64,000 bases of DNA from Reichenbachiella agarivorans. Lineage in GTDB: Bacteria; Bacteroidota; Bacteroidia; Cytophagales; Cyclobacteriaceae. The translations under genes were made by a program, and so were the position numbers. Below are positions 14,522 through 35,530 of the stretch, piece after piece. The stretch spans positions 2,759,501-2,823,500 of the forward strand of contig NZ_CP106679.1 in assembly GCF_025502585.1 (NCBI RefSeq), written 5' to 3'. The notes under the pieces were generated by a model. The model saw only the letters and a program-made list of their open reading frames with translations. It had not been told where the DNA came from and did not search any database. Positions within the stretch are counted from its first letter, which is position 1. Each line of letters begins with the position of its first letter.

Positions 14522-14548
14522 CCTCCAAGGGTTTTGAACCCTTGGAGG
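14522..14548. repeat. Intergenic palindrome, copy 1
   Basis: Perfect 12-bp arms CCTCCAAGGGTT (14522-14533) and AACCCTTGGAGG (14537-14548) flank a 3-nt loop. It sits between the DUF1501 stop and the NHL gene. Near-identical elements lie at 15684-15716 and 25343-25370. It could act as a hairpin in the transcript or as a REP-like repeat. Confidence 0.8.
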
Positions 14549-14565
14549 GATGCTGATACATATAC

Positions 14566-15675: not shown

Positions 15676-15683
15676 TTGGGAAA

Positions 15684-15716
15684 AACCCTCCAAGGGTTCT
15701 AAACCCTTGGAGGGTT
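15684..15716. repeat. Intergenic palindrome, copy 2
   Basis: Perfect 15-bp arms AACCCTCCAAGGGTT (15684-15698) and AACCCTTGGAGGGTT (15702-15716) around a CTA loop. Same family as 14522-14548, and placed directly after the NHL gene stop. Confidence 0.82.
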
Positions 15717-15748
15717 GGTTGGATGAAGTAAGCAAAGCATAAAGAACA

Positions 15749-17119
15749 ATGGAAGAATCAAACTTAATACTCTTTTTCGGGCGGTTTCACCCGCTGATCG
15801 TACACCTGCCGATTGGTTTTTTGATGATCGCAGCACTGATGGAGGTCGCTGAGCGACTCGGCTGGCTGTCCAACGTCCGCCCCGCCATCATATTCTCCCT
15901 GCTGCTCGGGGTAGCCAGTGCGGTAGCGGCCAGTGTGCTGGGCTACATGCTCGGCACCAGCGGTGACTATGCGCCCGATATGCTCGACGCGCACATGTGG
16001 GCGGGGATCATCACTACGGTGGTTGCTGCAGCGGCACTGCTGCTCAAGACGCGTTGGGTGGATTTTACCAAAGTGCAGACTCAGCTCTACCTCGGCCTGC
16101 TGGCGGTGATGATGATCGCCATGAGTGCCACCGGGCATCTGGGCGGAAACATGACCCACGGCTCGGACTATCTGACCAAATATGCGCCTTTCATCCCTAA
16201 GCCAGTAGATCCACTGGCCAGACCGAAGGTGACCGACATCCAACAAGCACAAATTTTTGGTGATGTAGTGCATCCAATCATACGGGATCGTTGCATGAGT
16301 TGCCACAGCAGCGAAAAGCAGAAGGGCAAACTTTCTTTTTCCTCCATAGAGGAATACCTAAAAGGCGGAGAAAGCGGTGACTTGATAGTAGCAGGAGATG
16401 CCTCAGCCAGCGAGCTGTTCAGGCGGATCAGCCTGCCTGCGGGTCATGACGACATCATGCCGCCAGAGGGCAAAGAGCCCTTGACCGAGGAGCAACAGCT
16501 ATTGATCAAATTTTGGATCGATGGAGCAGGAGGGAGTTTTGATACCCTGATCTCACAGGTCGAAGTACCAGAGGAGGTGATGACGGCTGCCAGTCACTAC
16601 CTGGGCTTATCGGGTGATGGGGAACAAATGTTGGCTTTGGATTCCATTGCGCCCAAGGACTTGGAGCAACTGCGCTTGATGGGGTTTGAGGTGCGCGAAC
16701 TGGCGGCTGGTAGTTATGCGCTAGATGTGACTTTGCCTGCTGGTACGGCCAACCCTTCTGATATCATGCGCTATCTCGATGCGCTAGATAAGGTCAGGGA
16801 GCATGTCATTTGGCTAGCTATGGACGACAGTGGACTCAGCGATGAATATTTGGTGCACTTTGCGGGGTACCCGAATTTGCGAAGTTTAAAATTGAGTAAC
16901 AATGCAATCACTGATGCAGGAATAAAACAACTCTCAGGGCTCCCTGTTTTGGAGAAACTCAATCTATATGGTACGGGAGTCACGGTGAGTAGTATGGATC
17001 ACTTGCGCAGACTACCTGCACTTCAGGTCGTGTACGTATGGCAGACGGGTATAGACGAAGAGGCAATTCACGAGTGGCATTCGGAACATGAAAAACCAAG
17101 ATTGGTGGCAGGATCATAA
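15749..17119 (+). CDS. DUF2231 membrane protein with PSCyt1 haem domain and LRR-like tail
   Basis: 456 residues. Four membrane helices in the first 140 residues match DUF2231 (FHPLIVHLPIGFLMIAALMEV at the start). A planctomycete-type cytochrome domain follows with CMSCHSS near residue 182 and a late Met (HDDIMPPEG) as a possible axial ligand. The last 100 residues are leucine-rich-repeat-like (LRSLKLSNNAITDAGIKQL, LEKLNLYGTGV). It would anchor a haem-c domain at the inner membrane, facing the periplasm, and so could link the neighbouring PSCyt1/DUF1549 protein to the respiratory chain. That link is inference. Confidence 0.85.
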   Translation: MEESNLILFFGRFHPLIVHLPIGFLMIAALMEVAERLGWLSNVRPAIIFSLLLGVASAVAASVLGYMLGTSGDYAPDMLDAHMWAGIITTVVAAAALLLKTRWVDFTKVQTQLYLGLLAVMMIAMSATGHLGGNMTHGSDYLTKYAPFIPKPVDPLARPKVTDIQQAQIFGDVVHPIIRDRCMSCHSSEKQKGKLSFSSIEEYLKGGESGDLIVAGDASASELFRRISLPAGHDDIMPPEGKEPLTEEQQLLIKFWIDGAGGSFDTLISQVEVPEEVMTAASHYLGLSGDGEQMLALDSIAPKDLEQLRLMGFEVRELAAGSYALDVTLPAGTANPSDIMRYLDALDKVREHVIWLAMDDSGLSDEYLVHFAGYPNLRSLKLSNNAITDAGIKQLSGLPVLEKLNLYGTGVTVSSMDHLRRLPALQVVYVWQTGIDEEAIHEWHSEHEKPRLVAGS

Positions 17120-20800: not shown

Positions 20801-21678
20801 ACAATGTCTCGACAGACAATGTCGCCAACAATGGGCAGTGGGATAGCTATCAGGGACTCACTGCGTCCAACAATGCTACACTGACAGCAGGTGTACATAC
20901 CGTGCGAATTACAGCTTCGGGAACCAATGCTTGGCAGTGGAACCTGGATAAAATTACTTTGACGAAAGTCGGAGAGTTGCCAAGTACTGGAGGAGGAAAC
21001 CCTGTTTCCTTGACTATCCAAGCCGAGGATTTTGCAACGACAGGAGGGACATACTCTGGCTTCTTGACCTATACTGTCGGGAGCGTGATGGCTATCAACT
21101 ACAACCAGACGGGTGATTGGGCAGATTACAATGTCAATATCCCCGAGACTGGAGATTACAATGTCGAGTATTTCATGGGTACGACTGTCAACGGCGCAGC
21201 GGTAGAGCTGTCAGTGGACGGGGTAGCTCAGCGCACCGATGCTGTGCCTAGCAATGGCAATTGGGATGCATTTGCCTCTGTCGTAGCAGGGGGGACGATT
21301 CATCTGAGTGCAGGATCACATACGATTCGCCTCAAAGGAGCCGGTATCCATGGCTGGGAATGGAACATGGACCGCTTCATCTTGTCCAAAGGCGGAGCAA
21401 GTGCTAGAACTATTGCGTCAAATCTGACTTCACAGCAAGAGTCTTTGGCACTACAGGTTTATCCAAATCCAGCGGCCGATCAACTTAACCTGAAGGGATT
21501 GACGCCTGGGCACTATCAAGTCGTGTTGTACAACTTGACTGGTGGAGTGGTGATGGATCAGCAAATAGATTTTGGTTACAACCATCAGGTCAATGTAGCC
21601 TCACTTCAGTCTGGTCTTTACCTCTTGCGAGTAAAGGGAGAAGGAGTGGATGAAAAAGTAAAAGTGAAAATACAATAA
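17881..21678 (+). CDS. GH86 beta-agarase/porphyranase with Big2, CBM6 and T9SS domains
   Basis: A 1265-residue secreted endo-glycanase. Signal peptide ends near EQLSAQ. The GH86 catalytic region spans about residues 30-520: acid/base Glu210 in EVINEPDM and nucleophile Glu377 in LVISEYGA. Two bacterial Ig-like (Big_2) domains follow at about 720-800 and 810-890, then two CBM6-like modules at about 898-1030 and 1042-1165, each with an EAESF/QAEDF opening, and a type IX secretion sorting domain (QVYPNPAADQLNL onward). GH86 members include both beta-agarases and beta-porphyranases; which applies here cannot be decided by eye. CBM6 modules in such enzymes bind agarose chain ends. Confidence 0.92.
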   Translation: MKYSYWKKCALLLLTIPILEQLSAQNVEVDVNVNIKHEVGGVSDFGRDRHITLHAALSESDWAGEEEKMEYLLNDLDVYLGRDNGSSTWKFQYSAEDPDNRSHHDPDSLSSFAGWWLEEYENIIETNGTKQYENRSTGKICGTNPHPTYPTLSYWHMCGSEWGRANGYAWLPQDIETSADWVTQYLDEFFVDDLASEGELMPEYWEVINEPDMLMNTGAFMVTSWEDIWEYHNLVAEGVRNRLGNRAPKIGGMTWGLHDFFADDLHRSRTVGYSDAYYGNTPGDEIAKAYAREQTESAYLNQTGPWTQWDVLWKGFMDNAGDNMDFYSVHMYDWPTYGSSGGATRSGGHVEAMLEMIEWYDVTKNGVNNRKPLVISEYGAVQGAWTYLPHDARYDWESLKPFNAMMMQFLERPDYIEKTMPFTPIKAQWGDVDQNGDGTPEYIYQYKMMRDDDHDGNWEWSDYIKWFELWAEVKGTRVDTKSSDPDIQVDSYIDGRDMYLILNNLEGVAKSINLNMFGNRPTLQNVNTKHLYLQGTSTVKLDDTNASSAPSAVQLAADGTMILKYTYANNVTINQQSVEKKFYGEAVSSNERVDIQSGMNTFYVNDVAVPQDASKAEAMLRITVNLFDAEDDQVGFLSIDELRVNGVAVEAPLDWRGGSQNRSRWFGTLEIPVPVNLLQANNQIDVDFHHSGEVCVVNLSTWEFTTAPGRTIGTDPGPSVAVTGVSVSPTQATLTSVGATQAFTATVAPTNATNKSVNWSSSNSNVATVNANGVVTAVANGTATITATTVDGAKIATSQVTVNTSSQMIAVTGVSVSPTSLSLNVGQSTDLSETVSPANASNKTVSWASSNSNVATVNANGLVSAVGAGNATVTVTTADGNKTATAAVTVSAGTPSGTTIVIEAESFASTGGTYNDGHVPNGVNVAPGLGINYVNAGDWAEYSINVGEAGVYSIVYQISTPMTNAQIQIAIDGNNVSTDNVANNGQWDSYQGLTASNNATLTAGVHTVRITASGTNAWQWNLDKITLTKVGELPSTGGGNPVSLTIQAEDFATTGGTYSGFLTYTVGSVMAINYNQTGDWADYNVNIPETGDYNVEYFMGTTVNGAAVELSVDGVAQRTDAVPSNGNWDAFASVVAGGTIHLSAGSHTIRLKGAGIHGWEWNMDRFILSKGGASARTIASNLTSQQESLALQVYPNPAADQLNLKGLTPGHYQVVLYNLTGGVVMDQQIDFGYNHQVNVASLQSGLYLLRVKGEGVDEKVKVKIQ

Positions 21679-21738: not shown

Positions 21739-24000
21739 ATGATGAAAAAAGTACTATACAGCGTATTGGCCAACATGGTCTGTTTTGTGGCCGTATGCCA
21801 GGAATGGAGCGGAGTGGCTATCCCTGCCAATGCAGGATCAGGAAAAGAATGGCAGCTACAAACGGCACCTTCAGATGATTTCAATTATACCTTCAATGCG
21901 ACCAACCAACTGTCCAATTTTGGCAACAACAAGTGGTACAATTTTTACCACAATTCTTGGAATGGCCCTGGATCAACCTACTGGCAGTACAATCACACCG
22001 CGGTGGACGGTGACAACTTGGTGATTCGTGCTTCGAGAAATCCGAGCACTTCCAAAATGGGGGTGCCAGGCATCAATTCGGGCTGTATCACTTCCAACAA
22101 CAAAGTGAAATATCCCGTGTTCATCGAAGCAGCAGTGAGTGTAGCCAATATTTCCTTGGCATCTGACGTGTGGTTGTTGAGCCCAGACGATACGCAGGAA
22201 ATCGACATGATTGAGTGCTACGGTGGGGCAGATAATGGCAATGCTTTTTTTGCCAAGGACATCCACTTGAGTCATCACTCTTTCGTGAGAAATCCGTTTC
22301 AGGACTACCAACCACGAGGACACAACAGCTGGTGGACACGCAGCGACATCACGACTTCTTGGGGGGATTATTGTTGGAACAACGACAACCGAAAGTATGT
22401 AAGAATTGGTGTGAACTGGATCGGTCCCAAGCATTTTGAATACTACGTTGACGGAGAACTGGTGCGGGTACTGTACGACAAGGCATGTGCCACCAAGAAT
22501 GGAAACACGTGGTACTATACCTATCCTAGCATGACCAATGGTCAGTTGGATTTTGATAGTGATGGCTATCAGACCGAAAATGCCTTTGCGACCAGCGCAA
22601 ATTACACGTTTGCGACCTTGCAAAATGCCAGCAATACATCGAGCGTCAGCGTGATCGACCCGTACAATTTTCAGGGCGGAGTGGGATTCACCAAAGAACT
22701 AGACATCATCATCAATGTCGAATCACAGGACTGGCATGTGGCAGCTGGACGTACACCTGGAGATGCTGAACTCAACGATGCTACTAAAAATCAGATGAAA
22801 GTGGATTGGATTCGTGTGTACAAGCCAGTAGCTACAGGCGATACAGGAGGAGGTAGCACTGGAGGCGGAACGTCTACAGGTGGGGCTGAGATCATCATCG
22901 AGGCGGAGAGTTTTGGCAGCACAGGCGGGACATACAACGACAGCTTGGTTCCCTATGGATTCAACAATGCGGGTACGATCGTCAATTATGTCAATACGGG
23001 TGACTGGGCCGAATATGCCATCAATGCAACGGAAGCAGGGGAGTTTGAGATCAAATATAGCATCGCCACGCCTTCGGACAATGCACAAGTACGCATCAAA
23101 GTAGACGGGCAAACGGTATCGACCGACAATGTTCCCAACAATGGGTCTTGGGGTGGTTTTGCAACACTCAGTGGATCACAAAATGTGTCGCTTACAGCGG
23201 GTAGCCATACCGTACGTATCGAAGCTTCTGGAACGAATGCATGGCAATGGAATCTAGACAAGGTGATCTTGACCAAAGTCATTTCGAGCGGAGGAGGCAC
23301 AGGTAGCGATGTGTCTGTTGTCGTGCAAGCCGAAAATTTCACCACGACAGGAGGAACCTACAACGACGCTTTGTCTGGAGGTCCAGGTTTAGGAGCCAAT
23401 ACATCAGGTACGATCATTAACTTCGTCAACGGAGGAGACTACATGGACTATGTGGTATCGATCCCCGAAGCAGGGGCTTACGAAGTAGTGTACAACTATG
23501 CGACTCCATTGTCTGGTACATCGGTAGATATTGCGGTGTCTGGGACCTACTATTTCAGTACCAACTTTGTCAGTACGGGTGGATGGGGGACTTATCAAAG
23601 CCAATCTGCCACTCAGACCGCCAACTTCACTGTAGGAAATCATACGATCCGATTGACTGCAGGAGCGGCAGATTGGCAGTGGAATTTGGATCACATCACC
23701 TTGACACGTGTTGGCAACCAATCGTCACGCACCCGAACCGAGGTGGATGAAAAGTTGTCCTCCGAGTCTATCGTGGCTTATCCTGTGCCGGCGAGTACAC
23801 AAGTACGATTTGCGGGGTTGACAGAGGAGGCTTACCAGGTGTCAGTATATGATATGCGTGGCAAAAAAGTCGTCAGGGGTATGGTTCATGCATCCGAGGA
23901 CTATGTAATGGATGTGAGACACCTAGAAGCAGGGATTTATGTCACAAGGCTGTATGCTCAAGGACAAATACAGACGATGAAAATCAATGTGAGAAGATAA
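21739..24000 (+). CDS. GH16 beta-agarase with two CBM6 modules and T9SS domain
   Basis: A 753-residue beta-agarase, clearly paralogous to the one at 6431-7789 and almost collinear with it over the first 370 residues. Signal peptide ends near FVAVCQ. Catalytic residues are Glu154 and Glu159 in DDTQEIDMIE, followed by HLSHHSFVRNPFQDYQP. A Gly/Ser/Thr linker (about 372-385) leads into two CBM6-like modules (about 388-515 and 528-655), then a type IX sorting domain (VAYPVPASTQVRF onward). The CBM6 modules resemble those of the GH86 neighbour, suggesting module exchange. Located 60 bp after GH86, probably cotranscribed at least in part. Confidence 0.93.
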   Translation: MMKKVLYSVLANMVCFVAVCQEWSGVAIPANAGSGKEWQLQTAPSDDFNYTFNATNQLSNFGNNKWYNFYHNSWNGPGSTYWQYNHTAVDGDNLVIRASRNPSTSKMGVPGINSGCITSNNKVKYPVFIEAAVSVANISLASDVWLLSPDDTQEIDMIECYGGADNGNAFFAKDIHLSHHSFVRNPFQDYQPRGHNSWWTRSDITTSWGDYCWNNDNRKYVRIGVNWIGPKHFEYYVDGELVRVLYDKACATKNGNTWYYTYPSMTNGQLDFDSDGYQTENAFATSANYTFATLQNASNTSSVSVIDPYNFQGGVGFTKELDIIINVESQDWHVAAGRTPGDAELNDATKNQMKVDWIRVYKPVATGDTGGGSTGGGTSTGGAEIIIEAESFGSTGGTYNDSLVPYGFNNAGTIVNYVNTGDWAEYAINATEAGEFEIKYSIATPSDNAQVRIKVDGQTVSTDNVPNNGSWGGFATLSGSQNVSLTAGSHTVRIEASGTNAWQWNLDKVILTKVISSGGGTGSDVSVVVQAENFTTTGGTYNDALSGGPGLGANTSGTIINFVNGGDYMDYVVSIPEAGAYEVVYNYATPLSGTSVDIAVSGTYYFSTNFVSTGGWGTYQSQSATQTANFTVGNHTIRLTAGAADWQWNLDHITLTRVGNQSSRTRTEVDEKLSSESIVAYPVPASTQVRFAGLTEEAYQVSVYDMRGKKVVRGMVHASEDYVMDVRHLEAGIYVTRLYAQGQIQTMKINVRR

Positions 24001-24079: not shown

Positions 24080-25327
24080 TTACGATGGAGCGAGCAGATG
24101 GACTGGTTTCAAGTCGGTTGATAGCTCTACGAGTTTTTGTTTGTCGACTTTTACGCTTTCCTTGATAAACTTCGTGCCGATCACATACGCTTTGGCGTTG
24201 TTGACTGCATCGACAGCCAGTAGTTGATCACCACGAAAGTACCAGGCAGAGAACTTGCGTTCACCTTCTTCCTCACGGATCAAAAGCTCGTCGTACCCTT
24301 CGGACAATCCTACCATTTGCAGTTTGACATCAAACTGATCCGACCAAAACCACGGGAGACTGTTGTAGCTGGCGTCCTTGCCAGCGATCACTGCAGCGGC
24401 TACTTTGGCCTGATCCACAGCATTTTGTACCGACTCCAGACGCACCCAACGGTCGTAAAGCGGATTGTGGTGAAAGCTACAATCGCCTATTGCGTAAATG
24501 GCAGGATCACTGGTTTGTGTCTGCGCATTGACTTTGATGCCGTTTTCAATCTCCAACCCCGCATCCTTGGCCAGCTCCAGATTGACACGAATGCCAACCC
24601 CTACCACGATCAGGTCTGCTGGGTATTGACTGCCATCTGAGCAATGTACGATGTTGCTTTCGTCAGCTTTTGCGATGGATACCACATTTTTATTCGTCAG
24701 TACATTCACATCCTGCTCCGCATGCAATTGCTGAAAGAATGCGGACATCTCAGGTGCCGTCACACGTGCCAGTACGCGCGCTTCGCGCTCGAGTACGGTG
24801 ACATCAGTGCCGACTTTTTTCATCGATGCGGCAATTTCCAGTCCGATGTATCCACCGCCGATGATCACCGCACGTTTGCCCTTACCGTCGCCCAGTGCAG
24901 CTTTGATTTGCTGCACATCATGAGCGGTTCTTAACGGATACAGCTGATGTGCTGTGTCCATGCCTGGGATCGGTGGGATGAGTGGTCGTGCTCCTGTCGC
25001 CAAAACCAGCTGATCGTACACCTGAGTTTCACCAGTATCTAGTGTGATGGTTTTGGTGTCACGGTTGATGGAGCTGATGCCTACACCCAGGCATAGTTCG
25101 ATATGCTCTTTTTCGTAGCTTTCCGCTGACTTGAGTGAGTGCTTTTCGATCAAATCGTCGCTGGTCAGGTAGGCCTTGGAGAGCGGTGGGCGGTGATAGG
25201 GCAGTACTGGGTCTTTGTCGAAGAGCACGATGCGGCCTTCCCAGCCTTCTTTGCGCAGCGCAAAGGCAAAGTTGACGCCCGCATGGCTCGCGCCGATCAC
25301 GAGACAGGTTTTATCTTTTGTAGACAT
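24080..25327 (-). CDS. FAD-dependent NAD(P)H-ferredoxin reductase for P450 system
   Basis: A 415-residue flavoprotein of the putidaredoxin-reductase type. An N-terminal FAD-binding Rossmann motif (VIGASHAGVNFAFAL), a central NAD(P)-binding motif (AVIIGGGYIGLEIA) and a second FAD motif (IYAIGDCSFH) are in the expected order, with a C-terminal dimer-like domain. It would pass electrons from NAD(P)H to the adjacent [2Fe-2S] ferredoxin and so to the P450. It is last in the minus-strand set P450, ferredoxin, reductase, separated from the ferredoxin by a short gap holding an intergenic palindrome. Confidence 0.92.
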   Translation of the reverse strand: MSTKDKTCLVIGASHAGVNFAFALRKEGWEGRIVLFDKDPVLPYHRPPLSKAYLTSDDLIEKHSLKSAESYEKEHIELCLGVGISSINRDTKTITLDTGETQVYDQLVLATGARPLIPPIPGMDTAHQLYPLRTAHDVQQIKAALGDGKGKRAVIIGGGYIGLEIAASMKKVGTDVTVLEREARVLARVTAPEMSAFFQQLHAEQDVNVLTNKNVVSIAKADESNIVHCSDGSQYPADLIVVGVGIRVNLELAKDAGLEIENGIKVNAQTQTSDPAIYAIGDCSFHHNPLYDRWVRLESVQNAVDQAKVAAAVIAGKDASYNSLPWFWSDQFDVKLQMVGLSEGYDELLIREEEGERKFSAWYFRGDQLLAVDAVNNAKAYVIGTKFIKESVKVDKQKLVELSTDLKPVHLLAPS

Positions 25328-25342
25328 AGTTTGAGAGACGAT

Positions 25343-25370
25343 CCCTCTAGGGTTTAAAACCCTTGGAGGG
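25343..25370. repeat. Intergenic palindrome, copy 3 (imperfect)
   Basis: CCCTCTAGGGTTT and AACCCTTGGAGGG form an imperfect stem of the same family as 14522-14548 and 15684-15716, between ferredoxin and reductase genes. The left arm has drifted by a substitution and a one-base loss. Confidence 0.7.
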
Positions 25371-25390
25371 TTGTTATGTTAATATAAATT

Positions 25391-25699
25391 TTAATTCACT
25401 ACATGGAGCGTCACCCCATCGATCGCATCGCTGATGTCGATCTGACAGCAGAGGCGACTGTGCTCGTTGTAGTTGTCTTCGAGCTCCAGCATGTCTGCCT
25501 CGATCTCTCCGGGAGCTCCCACTTTGTCAAAATCCCCTGCCGCAACATGCACATGACAGGTCGCACAGGAGCAAACGCCCCCACAGTCCCCGTCTATGCC
25601 GGTGACGTTGTTATCCTTGGCCAGCTCCATCACAGAGCCGCTGCTTGCTTCTGCTACGATCGTTTCGTTATCGCTGGTGATAAATGTAATTTTTGCCAT
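25391..25699 (-). CDS. Putidaredoxin-like [2Fe-2S] ferredoxin
   Basis: A 102-residue adrenodoxin/putidaredoxin-type ferredoxin. Cluster ligands are readable as Cys39, Cys45, Cys48 (in DCGGVCSCATCHV) and Cys85 (in RLCCQI). It shuttles single electrons from the reductase at 24080-25327 to the P450 at 25785-26945. Length and cysteine spacing match the family. The three genes lie in the same direction with short gaps, consistent with one transcript starting upstream of the P450. Confidence 0.93.
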   Translation of the reverse strand: MAKITFITSDNETIVAEASSGSVMELAKDNNVTGIDGDCGGVCSCATCHVHVAAGDFDKVGAPGEIEADMLELEDNYNEHSRLCCQIDISDAIDGVTLHVVN

Positions 25700-25734
25700 T
25701 GTTGTATTTTTTAATGTTGATTGAATTTCCTTCC

Positions 25735-25761
25735 CCTATCCCCCATCCTGAGGAGGATAGG
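25735..25761 (-). promoter_or_regulatory. Hairpin between P450 and ferredoxin genes
   Basis: CCTATCC (25735-25741) pairs with GGATAGG (25755-25761), extended inside by TCC-TGA-GGA with a small bulge. No T-tract follows on the minus strand. It may be an mRNA-stabilising or intergenic repeat element. Confidence 0.4.
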
Positions 25762-25784
25762 ATTATACCTTTGGCTAAGGAAGG

Positions 25785-26945
25785 TTAGTCCTTTCCATGA
25801 AATTTTACCTGAATACTGTCGTACCCCACTTTTCGTTGGAATTCGCCCCAGTCCTCGATATTGTCCTTTTGCTCTAGGATGTCGATAGATTTCACTTTTT
25901 GCGCAAGCACACCGAGTAAAACTCTCAATACCTGACGGGCGTGGGTAGCGCCTAGGCATTTGTGTATCCCAAAACCAAAGCCCACATGAGGATTCATTTT
26001 GCGATCGATGACTATTTCGTTAGGGTTTTCAAACGTCGAGGCATCTCTATTGGCGGAAGCCCAGCAAAGCGATACTCTGGTATCTGCTTTGGCGGCATGT
26101 TCGCAGACCTGGGTGTCTTCGGTCACCACTCGACCCATGTGGGTGAGCGGCGAGAAATAGCGCACGAGTTCCTCCACGGCGTGAGCAGTGATCTCAGGCT
26201 CATTGTCCAGTCGGCAGAGCGATTCAGGATGCTCTGCGAAGTAGGCAATGGAGTTGGTCACCGCATTGATGACGGTGTCTCTGCCACCCGCAAAGGTCAG
26301 GATCATCACGCCTTTGACTTCTTCTTTGGTCAGCTTTCGACCTTCAATTTCGGAATCTAGCAGCACTGAGTAAAGGTCATCTCCCGGGTGTTCGATGGCC
26401 TTGTCGATTTGCGCATCGATGTAGTCGTAGAGAATGGCCGCCTTGTCTCCGTCTAGCGCGGATTCTTCACTTCTGAATACGTGCATCCCCCAACCAATCC
26501 AGGTATCAGATTCTTCGTAGGGGATGTTGAGTAGCAGTGTGAGCGCACGTGACTGTAGCTTTAGGGCAAATTGCTCCATCACTTCGAGGCTGTCCGTTTG
26601 CAGCGCTTCGTCTACCAATTCAGTGATGATCTCTTCCAAACTCTCGCGATAATCTGGCTGCTCTGGTCGCTTGAACCAGTCTTCCAACAAAGCCCGGTAC
26701 TCACCGTGCATCGGTGGATCTACCTCAAAGGGAATCTGTCGGGTATCGCGTATGCTCACCTCCGACGGCACCACGATACGCCCCGGAGCAGCACCAGACT
26801 GAAATGTCTTCGTGTCCTTGGCTGTCTTGCGGACGTCTTTGAGACGGAGTAGCATGGTGACGGGATCGTTTTGATCCTCTATTGTGCCATAGCCTTTGGC
26901 TTCTCGGGCTTGTGCGAATGGATCGGGCAGTGCGCTTTTTTTCAT
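25785..26945 (-). CDS. Cytochrome P450, probable 6-O-methyl-D-galactose demethylase
   Basis: A 386-residue soluble bacterial P450. The I-helix oxygen-activation motif is AGGRDT, and the haem-ligand loop is FGFGIHKCLGA with Cys330. The K-helix region contains EELVRYFSP. No membrane anchor is present. In agar-degrading marine Bacteroidota, P450s of the CYP236A group located with a ferredoxin and a reductase oxidatively demethylate 6-O-methyl-D-galactose, a porphyran unit, giving galactose and formaldehyde. The same three-gene set beside agarases here makes that substrate likely; the assignment rests on context, not on recognised substrate-contact residues. Confidence 0.88.
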   Translation of the reverse strand: MKKSALPDPFAQAREAKGYGTIEDQNDPVTMLLRLKDVRKTAKDTKTFQSGAAPGRIVVPSEVSIRDTRQIPFEVDPPMHGEYRALLEDWFKRPEQPDYRESLEEIITELVDEALQTDSLEVMEQFALKLQSRALTLLLNIPYEESDTWIGWGMHVFRSEESALDGDKAAILYDYIDAQIDKAIEHPGDDLYSVLLDSEIEGRKLTKEEVKGVMILTFAGGRDTVINAVTNSIAYFAEHPESLCRLDNEPEITAHAVEELVRYFSPLTHMGRVVTEDTQVCEHAAKADTRVSLCWASANRDASTFENPNEIVIDRKMNPHVGFGFGIHKCLGATHARQVLRVLLGVLAQKVKSIDILEQKDNIEDWGEFQRKVGYDSIQVKFHGKD

Positions 26946-27316
26946 GTCAGCTCTTGTTTACTCAGTTGTGTAGATCAGTGCCTTCTATACACCTTCTATC
27001 TTACTAGCAAAGTACGCGAGCGGCCCTTGATTAATCTTCCTTTATTTTGATGGATTCATATGCTATTGTGTTGTATAAATAAAGATTTATAATAAATATG
27101 TGCTCAAATAGATCAGTAATCTCGCTGTGTTTAAACTTTTGGTTTCAAAGAATAATTAGCAGACCTATTTGCATAAATAAGTATATTTGATTTATCCATA
27201 TTGAGTAATTTCAACCTGAAAGAACTGAATAAGTCGAACTAACATATCAATAATGACGAGCAAGACAAGTAAATGTAAGATTCAGTTGGGAACACAATAA
27301 ATCAAATACAACTAAT
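26946..27316. other. Divergent intergenic region between P450 and mcrB-like gene
   Basis: About 370 bases with no gene. It must hold the minus-strand promoter for the P450 set and the plus-strand promoter for the McrBC pair. Composition changes sharply near 27050, from mixed to very AT-rich, which may mark the boundary of the restriction insert. A TATATTTG box lies at 27182-27189. Confidence 0.6.
27182..27189 (+). promoter_or_regulatory. Candidate -7 box (TATATTTG) for mcrBC-like genes
   Basis: TATATTTG fits the Bacteroidota TAnnTTTG box, about 128 bp upstream of the mcrB-like start. No well-spaced -33 TTG is evident, so this is tentative. Confidence 0.35.
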
Positions 27317-28705
27317 ATGATAGAAGAGATTCGACAGTTTATCACAAATCAGGCGATAGCGTTTGGCGCAAAACCTGAAGCAGAATTCCATAAACCGTAC
27401 ATCGAAAGAAACAACACAGGGCAGGAGGCTCTTAAAGATAATGGGGCTTACTTCGGGTTTATTCACCCTGATGAAGATGTATCAGGACCATTTCATGATT
27501 TTTCATTAACCATATTCCCAAATGATCAAGGGAAACCCTGGCTGGTTTGTTTAGGCATTGGTTCAAGTGGTTTTAAGAATGATTACGAGCTTGCTACTTA
27601 CCCTGGGTTGAGACGACTTTTTTCTCAACTTGTAGATCACAAAGGGTTTTGCAAATCGGATTTTTCAGATATAGAAACAAGTTTACCTAAGACAATCTCA
27701 GGTCATCGGGATTTACAGCATATTAAGAACACCGTCAAGACATATACCAAAGTACTTCCTGTGTGTCAAATTGTTGATAATCCAGAAAGCGAAGTAGGTA
27801 AGCAAACGATAGCAGCCTTCGTTGCTGGGTACGCGAAACTAAGAGATTGGCCTTCAAACAGCAGCCATCGCAAATCCCTATCAGCTGCATTATCACCTTT
27901 TCTCCAAATGAAAGAAGCTATTGACGAAACAGAAGAGATAATAAATCTTTTGACGGAGAGAAAATATATAGTACTCCAAGGACCTCCAGGCACGGGGAAA
28001 ACAAGATCAGCGAAAGAGGTAGCTGAAAAAATGAAAGCCATTGTGTTTTTTACTCAATTCCATGCTGAAACAAGCTTTTCCGATTTTATATATGGTATTC
28101 GACCTGATTTAGGCAATAATGAACTTAGCTACATTGAAAGTTTAGGGATTTTTACCCAAGCCCTTAAATATGCTCTTGAACACGGAAAGGAAAAAGTAGT
28201 CTTGGTCATTGACGAAATCAACAGAGCTAATCTTTCTAACGTCCTTGGGCCGATATTTTACTTATTTGAACACAAAATGGATTCGTCGAATGTAGAAATA
28301 GAAATAACTCCCGGTTTCAAGGTTAAAGTGCTTCCTGATAATTTTCACGTTATAGCAACGATGAATACAGCTGACCGAAGCCTAGCCGTTGTTGATTTTG
28401 CATTGAGAAGAAGATTTGCCTGGTACTCGCTAAAACCAAAAGCAATAAATATTAAACAATTTTTCAAAGATGATTTTGCTCGCATTGAAGATATCTTTAA
28501 TTGGTACGCGTCGAGCAATGAGCTCTCACTGCAACCTGGTCAAGGTTATTTTATTGCCGACAGTGAAAATGAGATGAAAAACCGCATTAGGTATGAAGTT
28601 TTCCCGTTGATTCAGGAGTATTTGCAAGAAGGCTTAATGAAAAACTCAAAGGAAGAATTCAATAATTACTTTTCAACTCGAATAGGTCAATCACTTTTTG
28701 AATGA
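27317..28705 (+). CDS. McrB-like AAA+ GTPase/ATPase of type IV restriction system
   Basis: A 462-residue motor subunit. The C-terminal half is a McrB-type AAA+ domain: Walker A GPPGTGKT, Walker B LVIDEINRAN, sensor MNTADRS and ALRRRF, all hallmark McrB motifs. The first 210 residues, which should recognise modified DNA, do not resemble a target-reading domain I know, so specificity is open. Codon use and composition are visibly more AT-rich than the flanking P450 and AraC genes, suggesting acquisition by transfer. The ATG of the McrC-like gene overlaps its stop (ATGA). It presumably restricts modified foreign DNA together with the next gene. Confidence 0.85.
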   Translation: MIEEIRQFITNQAIAFGAKPEAEFHKPYIERNNTGQEALKDNGAYFGFIHPDEDVSGPFHDFSLTIFPNDQGKPWLVCLGIGSSGFKNDYELATYPGLRRLFSQLVDHKGFCKSDFSDIETSLPKTISGHRDLQHIKNTVKTYTKVLPVCQIVDNPESEVGKQTIAAFVAGYAKLRDWPSNSSHRKSLSAALSPFLQMKEAIDETEEIINLLTERKYIVLQGPPGTGKTRSAKEVAEKMKAIVFFTQFHAETSFSDFIYGIRPDLGNNELSYIESLGIFTQALKYALEHGKEKVVLVIDEINRANLSNVLGPIFYLFEHKMDSSNVEIEITPGFKVKVLPDNFHVIATMNTADRSLAVVDFALRRRFAWYSLKPKAINIKQFFKDDFARIEDIFNWYASSNELSLQPGQGYFIADSENEMKNRIRYEVFPLIQEYLQEGLMKNSKEEFNNYFSTRIGQSLFE

Positions 28706-30114
28706 AACAGCCCGTTGATGTTTTTTGCGAAATACCCTGTTTGACCGAGCGCTCCAAGCAATTAAGCGGAATCACACTACAAAAAAAATGGTTTAAAGCT
28801 GCGGACAAAAGAATAATAGGTCAATACTTGCAAAAGTTCATTGACTATAATTCCAGCCTATTTAGATTCTTAGGCATTGAACCATACATCATTGGTACTG
28901 ACCAAAGCACTTCATTATCCTTTCGTTCATCAGAGTTTATCGGGACCGTTCCATTAAGAGCTCCGGATACTGGGAAGCAAATTGGTGACTTTGTTGTAAT
29001 GCCTAGGTTCATTGGTCAAGACCGATTTGAGGACTACATTGAAATACTAAACATTCTGGGGCCCGACATTAGTCCGCAAACGATAGATAGTCTACCGCTG
29101 GCTTCAGGGAAAAATTTCAGACCTCCATTATATCTCGAGGCATTAAAGTTCATCACTAGTGTCGAGTCACTATTAAAAAAATCATGGAAGAAATTTGATA
29201 ATATCGAAAAAGAATCAACTCAACCCAATGGACAAATCAACTGGAATAAGTACATATCCTCTCATTACAAAGTCGAAAAACAGCTTAAATTTCCTATCAA
29301 AAAAAACATTCTTAGTGAGTTTCATACAGAGTATGAAGAAGTGCGGTATGTTTATGATATTTGTAAGGCAGAACTGCTTTCATCGAAAACTCCACAAAGA
29401 ATTAAAAGCAGCATTCGAACTCAACTGGGTTTTATTGACGAAAAGTTGTATTTCCATCGACCTAAAACAACGAGTAAAATTGCAATCAGGGCTGCAGACA
29501 GCCCGACAGTAAAATCTTGTAAAAATCAAGCAAATAGAATCCTTAATTTCAAATTGACAGATAGTACTGCGTGGAGAGTTGATTTTTCAGAAGTTTTTGA
29601 AAAATTCATCCAATATATTTTCACAGAGGTGGCCAAAGAAACAGGTGGGAAGTTGCTCCCCAATTTTAAATTTCAATCCAGGACTTTAAGGCACTACGCT
29701 TGGGAAATGAAGCATATTGAACCTGATGCCATTTATCATAAGGATGGGTTTCTTGTTTTTATTGATGCTAAGTACAAGTCAAATCTTTACAACAAATTTG
29801 ACAGAAGTGATTCGCTAAAAGAAGATCATAGGCATGACTTACATCAAATCTTGGCATACTCTTCGTTTAGCAACTCTGAAGATAAATTTGGTTTTCTATG
29901 CTACCCTTCCTCCCATTTAGAATTAAAGACAATTAATTACTCAAATCGAATAAACAATGTAAAGAACACCGTTATAATACTAGGCATACCCTTAAAAAAG
30001 GACAGCATTTATGAAGCAAAAAAACTTTTGTCTCAAAAATTACATGATCTAGAAAAGCATAACGAACATAACATCATGCATTCCAATTTCAAATCCTCCG
30101 ATACATCTTCCTAA
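28702..30114 (+). CDS. McrC-like PD-(D/E)xK nuclease subunit
   Basis: A 470-residue partner of the McrB-like motor. The C-terminal part carries a PD-(D/E)xK nuclease core: PDAIYHKDGFLVFIDAKYK (Asp, then Asp-Ala-Lys), with a downstream HDLHQILAYS helix. The N-terminal half fits the McrC region that stimulates McrB hydrolysis. It overlaps the mcrB-like gene by four bases. Its last 26 bases overlap the 3' end of the AraC gene on the other strand, so its final residues (FKSSDTSS) are read from antisense AraC sequence; this looks like an insertion junction. AT-rich like its partner. Confidence 0.83.
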   Translation: MKQPVDVFCEIPCLTERSKQLSGITLQKKWFKAADKRIIGQYLQKFIDYNSSLFRFLGIEPYIIGTDQSTSLSFRSSEFIGTVPLRAPDTGKQIGDFVVMPRFIGQDRFEDYIEILNILGPDISPQTIDSLPLASGKNFRPPLYLEALKFITSVESLLKKSWKKFDNIEKESTQPNGQINWNKYISSHYKVEKQLKFPIKKNILSEFHTEYEEVRYVYDICKAELLSSKTPQRIKSSIRTQLGFIDEKLYFHRPKTTSKIAIRAADSPTVKSCKNQANRILNFKLTDSTAWRVDFSEVFEKFIQYIFTEVAKETGGKLLPNFKFQSRTLRHYAWEMKHIEPDAIYHKDGFLVFIDAKYKSNLYNKFDRSDSLKEDHRHDLHQILAYSSFSNSEDKFGFLCYPSSHLELKTINYSNRINNVKNTVIILGIPLKKDSIYEAKKLLSQKLHDLEKHNEHNIMHSNFKSSDTSS

Positions 30115-30931
30115 ACTCCAGTGGCGTGTAGCCTTTGAATTTTTTGAATTGCTTGTAGAAGAAAGGCAGGCTTTCATAGCCGCATTGGTAGGCGATCTCG
30201 GCCATCTGTAGGTCGGTCTCTAGGATGAGTCGGCTGGAGATATTCACCCGGTATTCGTTGAGGAAGACGAAGAAGGGCTTGCTCATCGTCTTGCTGAAAA
30301 AGCGCGAAAAGGACTGCTCACTCATGCTTAGCTTATCGGCAATATCAGCCAACTTAATTTTCTCTTTGAAGTGTGTTTTGACGTAAGATTGCACCACTTC
30401 GAGGCGGTTCGTAGTGGCGCTGGTACCGTCGTACGAATAGGAGGCGCCAGCGATATAGTCGTAGTGCGCATGGCGTGCGATGTAGTCCAGGAGCTCCACA
30501 AAACCAAGATATTGCTCAATCCCCGTACTGTCGGTCAACGCATGCATACGACTTGCGATTTCAGGCCGATCTTTGGGGTGAATGAACAAGCCTCTCTGCG
30601 CACGATGCATCAGTTCATGGATTTGGTCGAAAATCGGCAGATCGCTGATGATCTCCTGGCGCCACTGAATCACCAGCGATTCGCTAGGGCCGGTTTTATC
30701 ATCGATGTTTTTCCAACAATGCGGCAGGTTACTGCCCAGCAACACCAAATCACCTTCGTTGAAATCTGAAATATTGTTGCCCACGTAGCGGATGCCAGCA
30801 CTTCGGAGGATGAGGGTCAATTCATACTCGGGATGAAAATGCCAAGGCGCATCAAAAACCTTTTTGGAATAACGAAAGGCACGAATACTGTCCTGTTCGG
30901 CAATGGCTACTTGCTCTAGCACGGCTTTCAT
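30089..30931 (-). CDS. AraC-family transcriptional regulator
   Basis: A 280-residue regulator with an N-terminal cupin sensor (PWHFHPEYELTLIL, NEGDLVLLGSNLPHCW) and a C-terminal AraC double helix-turn-helix (IKLADIADKLSMSEQSFSRFF ... MAEIAYQCGYESLPFFYKQFKKFKGYTP). It is divergent from the alcohol dehydrogenase across a 145-bp gap, the usual layout for a local activator. The effector is unknown; a methylated sugar or a C1 product would suit the neighbourhood. It may have lain next to the P450 promoter before the McrBC pair arrived. Confidence 0.92.
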   Translation of the reverse strand: MKAVLEQVAIAEQDSIRAFRYSKKVFDAPWHFHPEYELTLILRSAGIRYVGNNISDFNEGDLVLLGSNLPHCWKNIDDKTGPSESLVIQWRQEIISDLPIFDQIHELMHRAQRGLFIHPKDRPEIASRMHALTDSTGIEQYLGFVELLDYIARHAHYDYIAGASYSYDGTSATTNRLEVVQSYVKTHFKEKIKLADIADKLSMSEQSFSRFFSKTMSKPFFVFLNEYRVNISSRLILETDLQMAEIAYQCGYESLPFFYKQFKKFKGYTPLEFRKMYRRI

Positions 30932-31076
30932 TTGTATTCTATTTTCTTATGCATTGAATTCATTTGAATAAATTGATTACAAAATAGCATATTTTTCAAT
31001 CAAAATAAGCAACTAAGGCGGCGCTGATTCTCGTCATATTTGTACTCTGTACTATTTAAGTCAATAAGTAAGAGAT

Positions 31077-32192
31077 ATGGCCATTCAATCCAAAGCGGCA
31101 ATAGCCAAGGGAGACGGGAGTTTCGTCATCGATACGGTAACGGTCGCTGATCCCCAAGCTGATGAAATACTAATAAGAGTGAAAGCAGCGGGACTCTGCC
31201 ACACCGATCATGATTCGCTCAACTGGGGCAAGCCCATCGTCATGGGGCACGAAGGTGCAGGAATCATCGAGAAATTGGGAAGTGAAGTCTCGGACTTCCA
31301 AGTCGGAGACCAAGTCATCCTCAACTGGGCGACACCTTGTATGCGATGCTTTCAGTGTGAGGAGGGCAACCAGCACATCTGCGAAAACAACTCACCCGTG
31401 ACAGCAGGAGGCAATGGCTATACGCCTGGTCACGCGCACCTCGACGGTACGAAGTGGAATGACAAAGCCATCGAACGCTCCTTCAATATCGGGACGCTTT
31501 CAGAGTACACGTTGGTCAAAGCCTCTGCCTGTGTGAAACTGTCCAGCGACATGCCCATGCCCTCGGCGAGTATCATCAGCTGCGGCGTGATGACGGGCTA
31601 CGGCTCGGTCGTCAACTCCGCCAAACTCTCTGCTGGCAGTTCGGCTGTGGTACTCGGTACTGGTGGAGTAGGTCTCAACGTCATCCAAGGAGCTCGCATC
31701 TCGGGTGCAGCCATGATCATCGCGATCGACATCAATCCCGAGCGACTGGAAATGGCCAAGGCCTTTGGGGCAACCCAAACGATACTGGCTGATAAGGAAG
31801 ACAAAGGGCTGATGAAAGCCGCCGAACAAGTCAAAGCCATGACCAAGGGACGCGGGGCGGACTATGCCTTTGAGTGTACAGCCATCCCTGCTTTGGGTGC
31901 AGCTCCGCTGGCGATGATCCGCAATGCCGGTACTGCCGTGCAGGTCAGTGGGATCGAAGAAGAAATAACTATCGATATGCGGCTCTTCGAATGGGACAAG
32001 ATTTACATCAATCCTCTTTACGGAAAATGCCGTCCGCAGATAGATTTCCCTAAATTGGTGAGTCTGTATGACAAGGGCGACTTGATGCTCGATCAGATGA
32101 TCACCCGCACCTATCCGCTCGATGACCTGCAGCAGGCCTTCGACGACATGCTGGGCGGTCGCAATGCCAAAGGCGTAATTGTATTCGACTGA
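31077..32192 (+). CDS. Zinc-dependent class-III-like alcohol dehydrogenase
   Basis: A 371-residue medium-chain dehydrogenase. Catalytic zinc ligands are recognisable in AGLCHTDH, GHEGAG and ISCGVMTGYG. The structural zinc set is CMRCFQCEEGNQHIC. The NAD site is GTGGVGLN. Its closest familiar relatives are class III enzymes that oxidise thiol-bound formaldehyde. Lying with a P450 demethylase set, it is a good candidate for oxidising released formaldehyde, though alcohol dehydrogenases in such loci could also act on sugar aldehydes. It shares one base with the esterase start, implying a joint transcript. A CATATTTG box near 31035 is a possible promoter. Confidence 0.88.
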   Translation: MAIQSKAAIAKGDGSFVIDTVTVADPQADEILIRVKAAGLCHTDHDSLNWGKPIVMGHEGAGIIEKLGSEVSDFQVGDQVILNWATPCMRCFQCEEGNQHICENNSPVTAGGNGYTPGHAHLDGTKWNDKAIERSFNIGTLSEYTLVKASACVKLSSDMPMPSASIISCGVMTGYGSVVNSAKLSAGSSAVVLGTGGVGLNVIQGARISGAAMIIAIDINPERLEMAKAFGATQTILADKEDKGLMKAAEQVKAMTKGRGADYAFECTAIPALGAAPLAMIRNAGTAVQVSGIEEEITIDMRLFEWDKIYINPLYGKCRPQIDFPKLVSLYDKGDLMLDQMITRTYPLDDLQQAFDDMLGGRNAKGVIVFD

Positions 32193-32989
32193 TGAGTAAA
32201 TTCAAAACAACCGAACTATCCGATCCGCAGTTTGAGATTGGAGGCCTACGCTTCATTACCGTGAAGACACCGAACCTAAAGGGGCGCGGCGATATCTGCG
32301 TTTTTGTCCCTGAGGGTGAAGACCTCCATGACCTACCCATTGTCACGTTGATGCACGGTGTGTACGGCAGTGCTTGGATCTGGGCGATGAAGGGCGGTGC
32401 AGCACAGACCGCCGAGCGACTGATCCGCGAGAACCAAATCCGAGCGATGGTACTGGCCATGCCTTCTGATGGATTGTGGGGCGACGGCTCGGCCTATATG
32501 GCGCACGATGGCTATGATTTTGAAAAATGGATTGCCGAGGATGTGACAGCTGCCGTGCGAGAACTGATCCCCCAGACTTCTGACCAATCACCGCTGTTCA
32601 TCTCGGGGTTGTCGATGGGTGGATTTGGCGCTTTGCGAGTAGGTGCCAAGTATGCGAAGCAATACGCGGGTATCTCGGCACATAGCTCCATCACAGAGAT
32701 CCGACAGATGAAACTGTTTGTCGTGGAGCCTCTGGATCACTACCAGCAGACGGCGCGCCTCGATGAGGATGCCTTTACTGCTATGGTGGAAAATCGAAAC
32801 GACCTGCCCCCGCTTCGCTTTGACTGTGGCAGCAGCGACTTGTTGATCGATTACAATCGCCAGTTGCATGCTGACCTGGACAAGGCAGGCATTGCCCATA
32901 CCTATGAAGAATTTGAAGGTGGCCACCAGTGGGAATATTGGCAGGAGCATTTGGTGGATACATTGCTGTTTTTTGATCGACAGATTTAG
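32192..32989 (+). CDS. Esterase-D-like alpha/beta hydrolase
   Basis: A 265-residue alpha/beta hydrolase of the putative-esterase (esterase D/S-formylglutathione hydrolase) fold. Nucleophile Ser141 sits in SGLSMGG; the probable acid is in CGSSDLLIDY and the His in FEGGHQWEYW. No signal peptide, so cytoplasmic. Being overlapped with a class-III-like dehydrogenase, it could hydrolyse the formyl thioester that enzyme would make, releasing formate. Alternative: a general carboxylesterase acting on acylated sugars. The pairing is the main support for the first view. Confidence 0.82.
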   Translation: MSKFKTTELSDPQFEIGGLRFITVKTPNLKGRGDICVFVPEGEDLHDLPIVTLMHGVYGSAWIWAMKGGAAQTAERLIRENQIRAMVLAMPSDGLWGDGSAYMAHDGYDFEKWIAEDVTAAVRELIPQTSDQSPLFISGLSMGGFGALRVGAKYAKQYAGISAHSSITEIRQMKLFVVEPLDHYQQTARLDEDAFTAMVENRNDLPPLRFDCGSSDLLIDYNRQLHADLDKAGIAHTYEEFEGGHQWEYWQEHLVDTLLFFDRQI

Positions 32990-33160
32990 GATAAGATTAA
33001 CAAATTGTTTGGCCTTGAAGAAAAGGCGTCAAGAAACTGGATTCCTTGGAGAAAAAGAAAATTATACTGTTTGAGAAGTGAAGTACGAGCTTCGAGTTTA
33101 TAATTTCCCCGACAAGGGAGTAAGTTTTAGTTATTTTCTTCACAGCCTTGATTTCTTTGC

Positions 33161-33188
33161 TTACTTTCTTCCTTAATGAAGAAAGTAA
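33161..33188. repeat. Inverted repeat upstream of FdhF/YdeP-like gene
   Basis: TTACTTTCTTC (33161-33171) and GAAGAAAGTAA (33178-33188) form a perfect 11-bp stem with a 6-nt loop. It lies 50 bp before the oxidoreductase start, in a stretch where an upstream ATG (33148) opens a frame with no family similarity. It may be part of a dispersed intergenic repeat; only one copy is present here. Confidence 0.55.
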
Positions 33189-33237
33189 GGCTCTGCCGGC
33201 GAGGCAAAAAGAACTTGACAAGCGGAAACAGAATATC

Positions 33238-35530
33238 ATGACCAAAAAACAAACCATATCCATCATCGGCCCCAAAAATCTCAGCGACCTCCGGCTGACA
33301 GCTCCACAGCAATACGCCGCAGGCATCCCCGCCGTGAAAGTGGCCCTCGATCACGCCATGAAGGAAGTGGGACTCACTCGCTCCTTTGCCACCCTATCCA
33401 AGCTCAATCAGGAGGAAGGTATTGACTGCCCGGGCTGTGCCTGGCCTGATCCCAAGAAGCGCTCTTCGCTCGGGGAGTATTGTGAAAATGGCGTCAAGGC
33501 CATTGCCGAAGAGGCTACTACCCATCGGGTGACGCCTGACTTTTTTGCACAGCATACGGTAGCCGAGATGTCACATTGGACGGACTACAAGATTGGCAAA
33601 AGCGGTCGACTCACGCACCCAATGGTGCTGCGAGAAGGCAGCGAACATTATGAAAAGATCTTCTTGGGAAGAGGCATTTGCTATGATTGGAAAGCAATTA
33701 CAGGCGTTGGATGATCCTAACGAAGCGATCTTTTATACCTCGGGTCGGTCGAGCAACGAAGCGGCTTTTCTCTATGGACTCTTCATCCGCGCCTTTGGCA
33801 CCAACAACATGCCTGACTGCTCCAACATGTGCCATGAGTCGAGTGGAATCGCTCTAGGCGAAACCCTGGGGATCGGCAAGGGGTCCGTCACATTGGAGGA
33901 TTTTGGGGATGCAGAAGCGGTCATGGTCATCGGTCAAAACCCGGGTACCAATCACCCGCGCATGCTCTCTGCGCTGGAGAAATGCAAAAGCCATGGCGGC
34001 AAAGTCATTGCGATCAATCCGCTCGAAGAAGCGGGATTGATCCGTTTCAAAAATCCGCAGGAGATCAAAGGCATCATGGGCGGTACTGAGCTCACCGACA
34101 TTCACCTACAAGTCAAAATCAACCAGGATGTGGCATTGCTCAAGCTCATCATGAAGCGACTCGCCGAGCGAGAAGAGCGTGAAAGTGGTGTTTTTGATTG
34201 GGAATTCATCAACCAAAAAACAAACGGAGTAGAAGCGCTATTGGCAGATTTGAAGCGACAAGACGAAGCAAGGCTTTTGGCGCAATGCGGCATCTCTGAA
34301 GTGAAAATCAACGAAACCGTGGAGCTGCTCGCTCAGCGTAAACGAATCATCATCTGCTGGGCGATGGGACTCACCCAACACAAAAACGGCGTAGAAAATA
34401 TCAAAGAATGCGTCAACCTACTCCTGCTCAAAGGCAGCCTCGGCATCAAAGGAGGCGGCACCTGTCCCGTCCGTGGACACAGCAACGTACAGGGAGACCG
34501 AACCGTGGGCATCATGCACCATGTATCACCCAAACTCAATGCCTCCTTGGAACGAGTATTTGGCTTTACCCCGCCTGATCAAGAAGGGTTGGATACGGTG
34601 CATGCCATCCAAGCCATGCACGAGGGACGTGCCAAGGTCTTCATTGCTTTGGGGGGCAACTTCCTATCGGCGGCATCTGATACTGCCTATACAGGTGAGG
34701 CCTTGCAGCGATGCGACTTGACGGTATCCATCAGTACCAAGCTCAACCGTACCCATTTGATCACTGGCAAGACGGCGTTGATATTGCCGACTTTGGGACG
34801 TACCGAGAAAGACCACAAAGCAGGAAAAGACCGATTCGTAACGGTAGAAAATAGCATGGGAAGGGTTCATCAATCACATGGGAGATTGGCGCCTGCCTCG
34901 GATCAGCTCATGAGTGAGCCCGAGATCGTGGCGCGCATGGCGCAAGCCTATTTTGGAGAGAATGCCAAGATTCCATGGCAGCAGCTAGGTACCGATTACG
35001 ACCTGGTGCGTCAAAAAATATCAGAGGTATTCGACGGTTTTGACAACTACACTAAGCGATCTCAGCAAGCAGGTTTTGATCTGCCCAACCACACACGTGT
35101 GTGGGACGAATCCAAATTGCCAGGAGGCAAGGCACAGTTCACCGTGTGTGGACTGCCACAGCACGACTTGGCCGCAGATGAGTTTCTATTGATGACGATC
35201 CGATCACATGATCAGTTCAACACCACGATCTATGGCATGGACGATCGCTACCGCGGCATCTACAACGAGCGCCGAGTGGTACTGATCAACGCCAAGGATG
35301 CTGAAATGATGGGATTAGAAAAGTTTGACAAAGTAGACTTAGTCAGTAGATACGGTGGGATTGAGCGCAAGGCAGAAAACTTCCTCATTATCCCCTACAA
35401 CATCCCTAGGGGCAATCTGGCGGCTTACTTTCCAGAAACCAATGTGCTGATCCCTCACGATCAATACGCAGACAAAAGCCACACGCCGATCAGCAAGTCG
35501 GTGAGGGTAAGGATTGATGTGAAGCGCTAA
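33238..35530 (+). pseudogene. FdhF/YdeP-family molybdopterin oxidoreductase, frameshifted
   Basis: A formate-dehydrogenase-like molybdopterin enzyme of the FdhF/YdeP type, about 763 residues if the frame is restored. ATG 33238 begins MTKKQTISIIGPKN; the family marker CPGCAWPDP and NMCHESSGIAL are present, as are ALGGNFLSAASDT and a C-terminal DHQ-type dinucleotide domain. The first frame stops at 33714, while homology continues in the frame ending 35530. The switch is at 33660-33662, where one extra T between ATC and TCTTGG breaks ...EHYEKI/SWEEAF. Everything after it looks intact, so this is either recent inactivation or a sequence error. In context it could oxidise formate to CO2; YdeP-type substrates are in general unproven. 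Confidence 0.85.

Follow-up and report, generated by a model that had tools for sequence, protein, structure and literature searches.

The 64,000-nt stretch of Reichenbachiella agarivorans DNA analyzed here (the window; contig NZ_CP106679.1, positions 2,759,501 to 2,823,500) comes from a genome assembled as one contig of 4.47 Mb and carries, in a porphyran utilization region, what its sequence identifies as a known kind of 6-O-methyl-D-galactose demethylation locus. Beside the demethylase genes lies a gene for an FdhF/YdeP-family molybdoenzyme (hereafter FdhF), a new and recurring addition to this type of locus; its alcohol dehydrogenase (ADH) and esterase genes were already known. The best explanation as a whole, to which we give a little better than even confidence, is a known demethylation locus with its published auxiliary set, to which FdhF has been added for the one-carbon (C1) unit. 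The genes, in window coordinates, are:

24080-25327, minus strand: ferredoxin reductase of the P450 system (Pfam Pyr_redox_2 and Reductase_C)
25391-25699, minus strand: 2Fe-2S ferredoxin (Pfam Fer2)
25785-26945, minus strand: cytochrome P450, putative 6-O-methyl-D-galactose demethylase (PDB 6g5o match)
27317-28705, plus strand: McrB-like AAA ATPase, probable insertion outside the pathway (NCBIfam McrB model, below cut-off)
28702-30114, plus strand: gene paired with the McrB-like ATPase, McrC judging by its position alone (no library family)
30089-30931, minus strand: AraC-family regulator (Pfam HTH_18)
31077-32192, plus strand: zinc ADH, FoADH/ZoADH ortholog (PDB 8h2a/8h2b matches)
32192-32989, plus strand: CE1/ferulate-esterase-like alpha/beta-hydrolase, cytoplasmic-looking, partner of the ADH (Pfam Esterase)
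33238-33714, plus strand: FdhF/YdeP molybdoenzyme, N-terminal part, first frame (TIGR01701 positions 2-116, 113.8 bits)
33593-35530, plus strand: FdhF/YdeP molybdoenzyme, C-terminal part, second frame (TIGR01701 positions 112-742, 729.3 bits)

An earlier, sequence-only reading of this DNA had placed the reductase, ferredoxin, and P450 on one strand, and all three are indeed on the minus strand (24080-26945). It had assigned the regulator, dehydrogenase, hydrolase, and molybdoenzyme to the other strand; the last three are on the plus strand, but AraC lies on the P450 strand. Every gene that it named was found, although it had skipped the two genes between the P450 and AraC.

The P450 aligned with PDB 6g5o, which we take to be the Zobellia 6-O-methyl-D-galactose demethylase, at 647 bits over 383/386 residues (next PDB chain, 144 bits); no second P450 was found in the genome. 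We scanned 80 P450 loci for neighbors (the 80-locus set; 66 with full flanks and 14 with shorter flanks) together with a second group of 20 P450 loci from relatives (the 20-locus set), some genomes being shared between the two. Genes were named with Pfam, NCBIfam, and, for a defense-like pair, PADLOC. Within the 80-locus set, a ferredoxin reductase stands beside the P450 in 79 loci (the remaining locus is a cut contig), a ferredoxin also in 79/80, and an AraC-type match occurs in 52/80. Loci for 6-O-methyl-D-galactose demethylation were reportedly described in Formosa agariphila and Zobellia galactanivorans by Reisky in 2018 and Robb in 2018. The window shares with the Formosa and Zobellia loci the same P450, ferredoxin, reductase, ADH, and esterase alongside porphyran-degrading enzymes; it differs from them in having FdhF behind the esterase and a McrB-like gene pair, present in the window only, between the P450 and AraC.

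Oxidative demethylation of 6-O-methyl-D-galactose by this P450 type has been described, and the P450, its redox partners, the esterase, and the ADH have been reported as a conserved neighborhood (Brott et al. 2023, PMC10033563). The 6g5o orthology and that neighborhood agree with the earlier assignment of the P450 and its partners to the 6-O-methyl-D-galactose demethylase kind. Judged by orthology, the P450, ferredoxin, and reductase would free galactose and formaldehyde. The AraC regulator, the FoADH/ZoADH-type ADH, and its obligate esterase partner would be the published auxiliary set, on which Zobellia appears to depend when growing on the sugar and which would not be a classical thiol-dependent formaldehyde pair. 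At one locus from an Echinicola relative (L046), the P450 gene is split across two frames.

The C-terminal fragment of the window molybdoenzyme passes the TIGR01701 cut-off of 582.15 by itself, with 729.3 bits. FdhF stands at the P450 locus in 7/80 loci (Reichenbachiella, Echinicola, three Flammeovirga, and two Aquimarina) and in 6/20 of the second set, plus two further Aquimarina. At nine loci from Reichenbachiella, Echinicola, and Flammeovirga it is encoded on the esterase strand, 87-252 bases behind that gene; in Aquimarina it is placed differently, behind the reductase. We saw no partner subunit beside the molybdoenzyme. It is not named in the neighborhood section of PMC10033563, as far as the available part of that paper goes, and among the openly licensed (CC0, CC BY, CC BY-SA) PubMed Central literature we found no paper joining the P450 locus with FdhF/YdeP. 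The suggestion that the molybdoenzyme extends the standard demethylase set holds, with FdhF a recurring neighbor in 7/80 loci. We propose that an FdhF from a subclade without FdhD was added behind the esterase in Reichenbachiella, Echinicola, and Flammeovirga and behind the reductase in Aquimarina.

In a quick tree of 62 proteins, 14/14 P450-adjacent molybdoenzymes fell in one 32-row branch (SH-aLRT 100), and the label "P450-adjacent" needs at least five changes on the tree. An FdhD gene lies beside FdhF in 0/32 branch rows versus 15/30 rows outside, E. coli YdeP being among the outside rows. The repeated label changes, the separate Aquimarina placement, and the same-strand 87-252 base spacing behind the esterase, which three genera retain with proteins about 70% identical, argue against passive linkage, that is, against FdhF being a common single gene of marine Bacteroidota that serves general formate removal. 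This alternative, which we consider improbable, draws on the location of FdhF elsewhere in most P450-bearing genomes and on its occurrence in 117/368 P450-less family genomes and beside unrelated genes.

Genome-wide, FdhF/YdeP over cut-off was present in 44 of the 48 P450-bearing genomes searched from the 80-locus set. A sample of the window's family comprised 390 genomes, 22 P450-bearing and 368 P450-less. FdhF was found in 137 of them, with 20/22 of the P450-bearing genomes carrying it versus 117/368 of the P450-less (Fisher p 3.5e-8, a value that, like the one below, ignores kinship). Within Aquimarina, the corresponding counts were 18/19 and 31/47 (p 0.015). The link between FdhF and the P450 is weaker inside one genus than across the family.

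Two side observations concern FdhF genes in other genomes. The FdhF/YdeP gene is also in two pieces in genomes G417 (Paraglaciecola hydrolytica, from locus L095) and G186. At three Algoriphagus loci (L137, L138, and L139), FdhF heads a conserved run of a transporter-like, two unassigned, and an SDR-like protein, labels that were given by eye.

Window FdhF and all 30 other aligned family members keep a Cys-His pair and an Arg that we take to be the catalytic residues of Cys-type formate dehydrogenases. These residues are identical in both subtypes and are present in E. coli YdeP too, and because YdeP keeps them they are not decisive for a formate dehydrogenase. FdhD supplies a sulfur ligand to formate dehydrogenases, and E. 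coli YdeP has been linked to acid resistance (PMC7384014). In Pseudomonas putida, deletions showed that FdhF/YdeP proteins act in formate oxidation, and release of CO2 from formate continued when fdhD was missing (PMC10308882). The P. putida proteins PP_0256 and PP_4596, together with M. extorquens Fdh4A, belong to the same TIGR01701 family and have the Cys-His and Arg in common with window FdhF. Compared to these enzymes, window FdhF lies in the FdhD-less subclade, is frame-broken, and has no partner subunit seen adjacent to it. Formate would be the likeliest substrate of FdhF, with real doubt. That FdhF most likely oxidizes formate, or a formyl adduct arising from the released C1 unit, is in our estimate an even call.

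Several findings weigh against the reading of FdhF as the added C1 step. In 73/80 cases the P450 locus carries no FdhF. In the window's genus, all eight genomes have FdhF, with the P450 (5/5) or without it (3/3), and the 31/47 P450-less Aquimarina genomes carry FdhF too. The window gene itself is split over two frames, from an ATG at 33238 to a stop at 33714 and then in a second frame to 35530. Second-frame homology begins at about 33653, and relative to both sister assemblies there is a one-base shift near 33.66 kb; in six relatives with FdhF at the same place, both parts are in a single frame. The break reflects an error in sequencing or else a recent loss of the gene, and because of it the "full route" of the sequence-only reading is not intact in this assembly. 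Finally, a search for FdhD, the sulfurtransferase that usually serves formate dehydrogenases (PF02634, E 0.001), gave no match in the source genome and none in the 16 searched genomes placed in the P450-adjacent FdhF branch. FdhD was found in 7/32 genomes searched overall: 5/6 outside the branch (all but G336) and 2/2 unplaced family genomes (G155 and G176), with none in two unplaced Zobellia or in six genomes without an over-cut-off FdhF. The proposal that the molybdoenzyme is the last step is doubtful: it retains the formate-dehydrogenase residues in its favor and has the lack of FdhD in the source genome and the searched subclade genomes against it.

Turning to the dehydrogenase, the window ADH matched PDB 8h2a at 721.7 bits and 8h2b at 663.1 bits over its full length; the next match, a class III enzyme, scored 186.2 bits. 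It falls below the class III model TIGR02818 (221.2 bits; cut-off 543.95) and below the cut-offs of the mycothiol and NDMA models. The best models for the locus ADHs were NDMA-dependent ADH followed by mycothiol- and glutathione-dependent formaldehyde dehydrogenase, with 22/22 matching each. Pro107 of the window ADH aligns at class III Arg115, presumably the residue that binds the glutathione adduct, and this Pro is invariant in 22/22 locus ADHs.

PDB entries 8H2A and 8H2B are FoADH and ZoADH (PMC10033563), of which the window ADH is, by these alignments, an ortholog; no sequence feature was found that would predict a different substrate. According to the same paper, FoADH and ZoADH are inactive on formaldehyde without a thiol and as dismutases, and are also formaldehyde-inactive with glutathione, mycothiol, bacillithiol, cysteine, coenzyme A, ergothioneine, 2-mercaptoimidazole, and 4-mercaptophenol. 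In the direction of reduction, their preferred substrates are aromatic aldehydes and furans. A Zobellia strain lacking the ADH grew less well on the methyl sugar but not on galactose (PMC10033563). We rejected class III dehydrogenase as a family name, given the score below cut-off, the Pro at the Arg position, and the inactive orthologs; the resemblance implied by "class-III-like" is at the superfamily level. The claim of a class III dehydrogenase acting on formaldehyde runs counter to the behavior of orthologs that are inactive with eight thiols or none.

The esterase likewise falls below its supposed family model, the S-formylglutathione hydrolase TIGR02821 (28.7 bits; cut-off 281.7), which leaves the S-formyl-thiol hydrolase identity without support. 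All 24 locus esterases match this model weakly (best E 8.9e-12). A profile built from the 24 placed 5vol first (E 6e-37), with 7xrt/ferulic acid esterase chains, and reached chains named S-formylglutathione hydrolase only at E about 1e-8. The catalytic motifs GLSMGG, D, and H are invariant in 24/24 relatives. S-formylglutathione hydrolase/esterase D was rejected as a family name, the protein being far below cut-off and nearer ferulate esterases; "esterase-D-like" again describes a superfamily-level resemblance.

The ADH occurs in 58/80 loci and the esterase in 57/80, and with FdhF in 7/80 the recurrence of these neighbors exceeds what chance would give. An esterase is present in 57 of the 58 ADH loci, and the one without it is a cut contig; the two genes are separated by less than 400 bases in 52 pairs and by 2.5-3.4 kb in five. 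Both genes are missing in 15/66 full-flank loci. Such co-occurrence, which the sequence-only reading had suggested checking for all three C1 genes, is seen for the ADH and the esterase, with FdhF in just 7/80 loci. The hydrolase had been put forward as a non-standard extension; it is already in print (PMC10033563) and pairs with the ADH as above.

The pairing bears on the route as first proposed, in which the ADH oxidizes a formaldehyde-thiol adduct, the hydrolase frees formate, and the molybdoenzyme makes CO2, the carrier being a thiol not yet tried. Strict ADH-esterase pairing is how thiol-dependent formaldehyde systems are organized, and these share with the window a zinc ADH adjoining a serine esterase, and the ADHs match the NDMA-, mycothiol-, and glutathione-dependent models in 22/22 cases each. 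The deletion phenotype on the methyl sugar fits, and the authors of PMC10033563 left an unknown thiol possible. Compared to those systems, however, both window enzymes are under their family cut-offs, with the ADH below the class III, mycothiol, and NDMA models, the esterase far from S-formylglutathione hydrolase, and the class III Arg replaced. The eight-thiol, thiol-free, and dismutase assays were negative for both orthologs, whose active site the authors called narrow (PMC10033563). Locus L031, from a Reichenbachiella relative, has the esterase and FdhF but no ADH match. Because the published FoADH/ZoADH formaldehyde assays were negative, the pair of class III dehydrogenase and formyl-thiol hydrolase lacks support, and we regard the route in this literal form as quite unlikely. 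Of the formaldehyde-to-CO2 sequence, the first step is contradicted by published assays and the second is unsupported; on-the-spot disposal of formaldehyde, also part of the sequence-only reading, has no direct evidence in the sequence at the locus.

The substrate preferences of FoADH and ZoADH point in another direction, namely that the ADH and esterase handle a different by-product (a reactive aromatic or furan-like aldehyde, or a sugar acyl group) and that the FdhD-less molybdoenzyme reduces or oxidizes a substrate other than formate. The proximity of the esterase to ferulate-esterase-like proteins, the absence of FdhD, and the acid-resistance link of E. coli YdeP (PMC7384014) are consistent with this. 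No source of such an aldehyde is known in porphyran, however, deleting the ADH affects growth on the methyl sugar specifically (PMC10033563), and the Cys-His-Arg set of formate dehydrogenases is kept, a weak objection since E. coli YdeP has it. We consider this explanation rather doubtful.

Zobellia has a ribulose monophosphate (RuMP) formaldehyde route (Brott 2022, as cited in PMC10033563) that would dispose of the same formaldehyde; the source genome has no RuMP hexulose-phosphate synthase (HPS) over cut-off (32.6 bits versus 200). Among the 48 P450-bearing genomes, 11 have an HPS match at E 1e-15, five of them over cut-off. The match is missing in 7/7 genomes whose P450 locus includes FdhF and in 30/41 others as well. 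In the family set, HPS over cut-off was found in 1/7 genomes with FdhF at the locus and in 0/15 others, four of which score near 140 bits. We rejected as unproven the idea that FdhF in this position takes the place of RuMP, since most of the other genomes lack the match too (30/41). A further reading, in which the ADH-esterase-FdhF trio is a dedicated C1-oxidation line on an unknown carrier, ending in an FdhD-independent formate dehydrogenase and serving formaldehyde disposal in RuMP-less porphyran eaters, seems unlikely to us; ovothiol, a heteroaromatic thiol, is our guess at one candidate carrier.

Formaldehyde is an unavoidable by-product of eating a methylated red-algal sugar. Published work leaves open why growth depends on the ADH (PMC10033563), and the recurring molybdoenzyme gives this question a foothold: it suggests a C1 end product, belongs to an FdhD-less subclade, and occurs in genera without the Zobellia-type RuMP route. 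The tidy three-step reading from formaldehyde to CO2 calls for caution, as it conflicts with published assays. What merits following up in this locus is its recurring FdhD-less molybdoenzyme.

The remaining genes between the P450 and AraC are probably an insertion, a McrB-like defense gene and its partner, rather than a pathway component. The 27317-28705 product scored 119 bits against the NCBIfam McrB model (cut-off 637), and the 28702-30114 product matched no family in Pfam, NCBIfam, or PADLOC. The McrB-like gene had no tblastn match in the 20-locus or 80-locus set, and about 3 kb (27074 to about 30043) is missing from the two closest sister loci. A promoter and terminator scan gave results near chance.

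On its upstream side, the P450 locus adjoins a polysaccharide utilization locus with a porphyranase-domain enzyme. The context features are:

12-6400, plus strand: two sulfatases, a GH2-like enzyme, and a cytochrome c-domain protein
17881-21678, plus strand: secreted porphyranase-domain enzyme with CBM6 repeats (Pfam Porphyrn_cat_1 and BPA_C)
21739-24000, plus strand: secreted CBM6/CBM35 protein, with a catalytic domain that has no Pfam name

We take the catalytic domain of the 21739-24000 protein to be GH16 by its motif. Between these features, at 9751-17119, the window holds planctomycete-type genes (PSCyt1/PSD1, DUF1501, NHL-like, and DUF2231/PSCyt1). DUF1501 homologs lie less than 10 kb from the P450 in 8/80 loci of the 80-locus set and 5/20 of the 20-locus set, with one locus shared. 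Those near the P450 have 61-82% identity, and in Aquimarina they are located behind FdhF.

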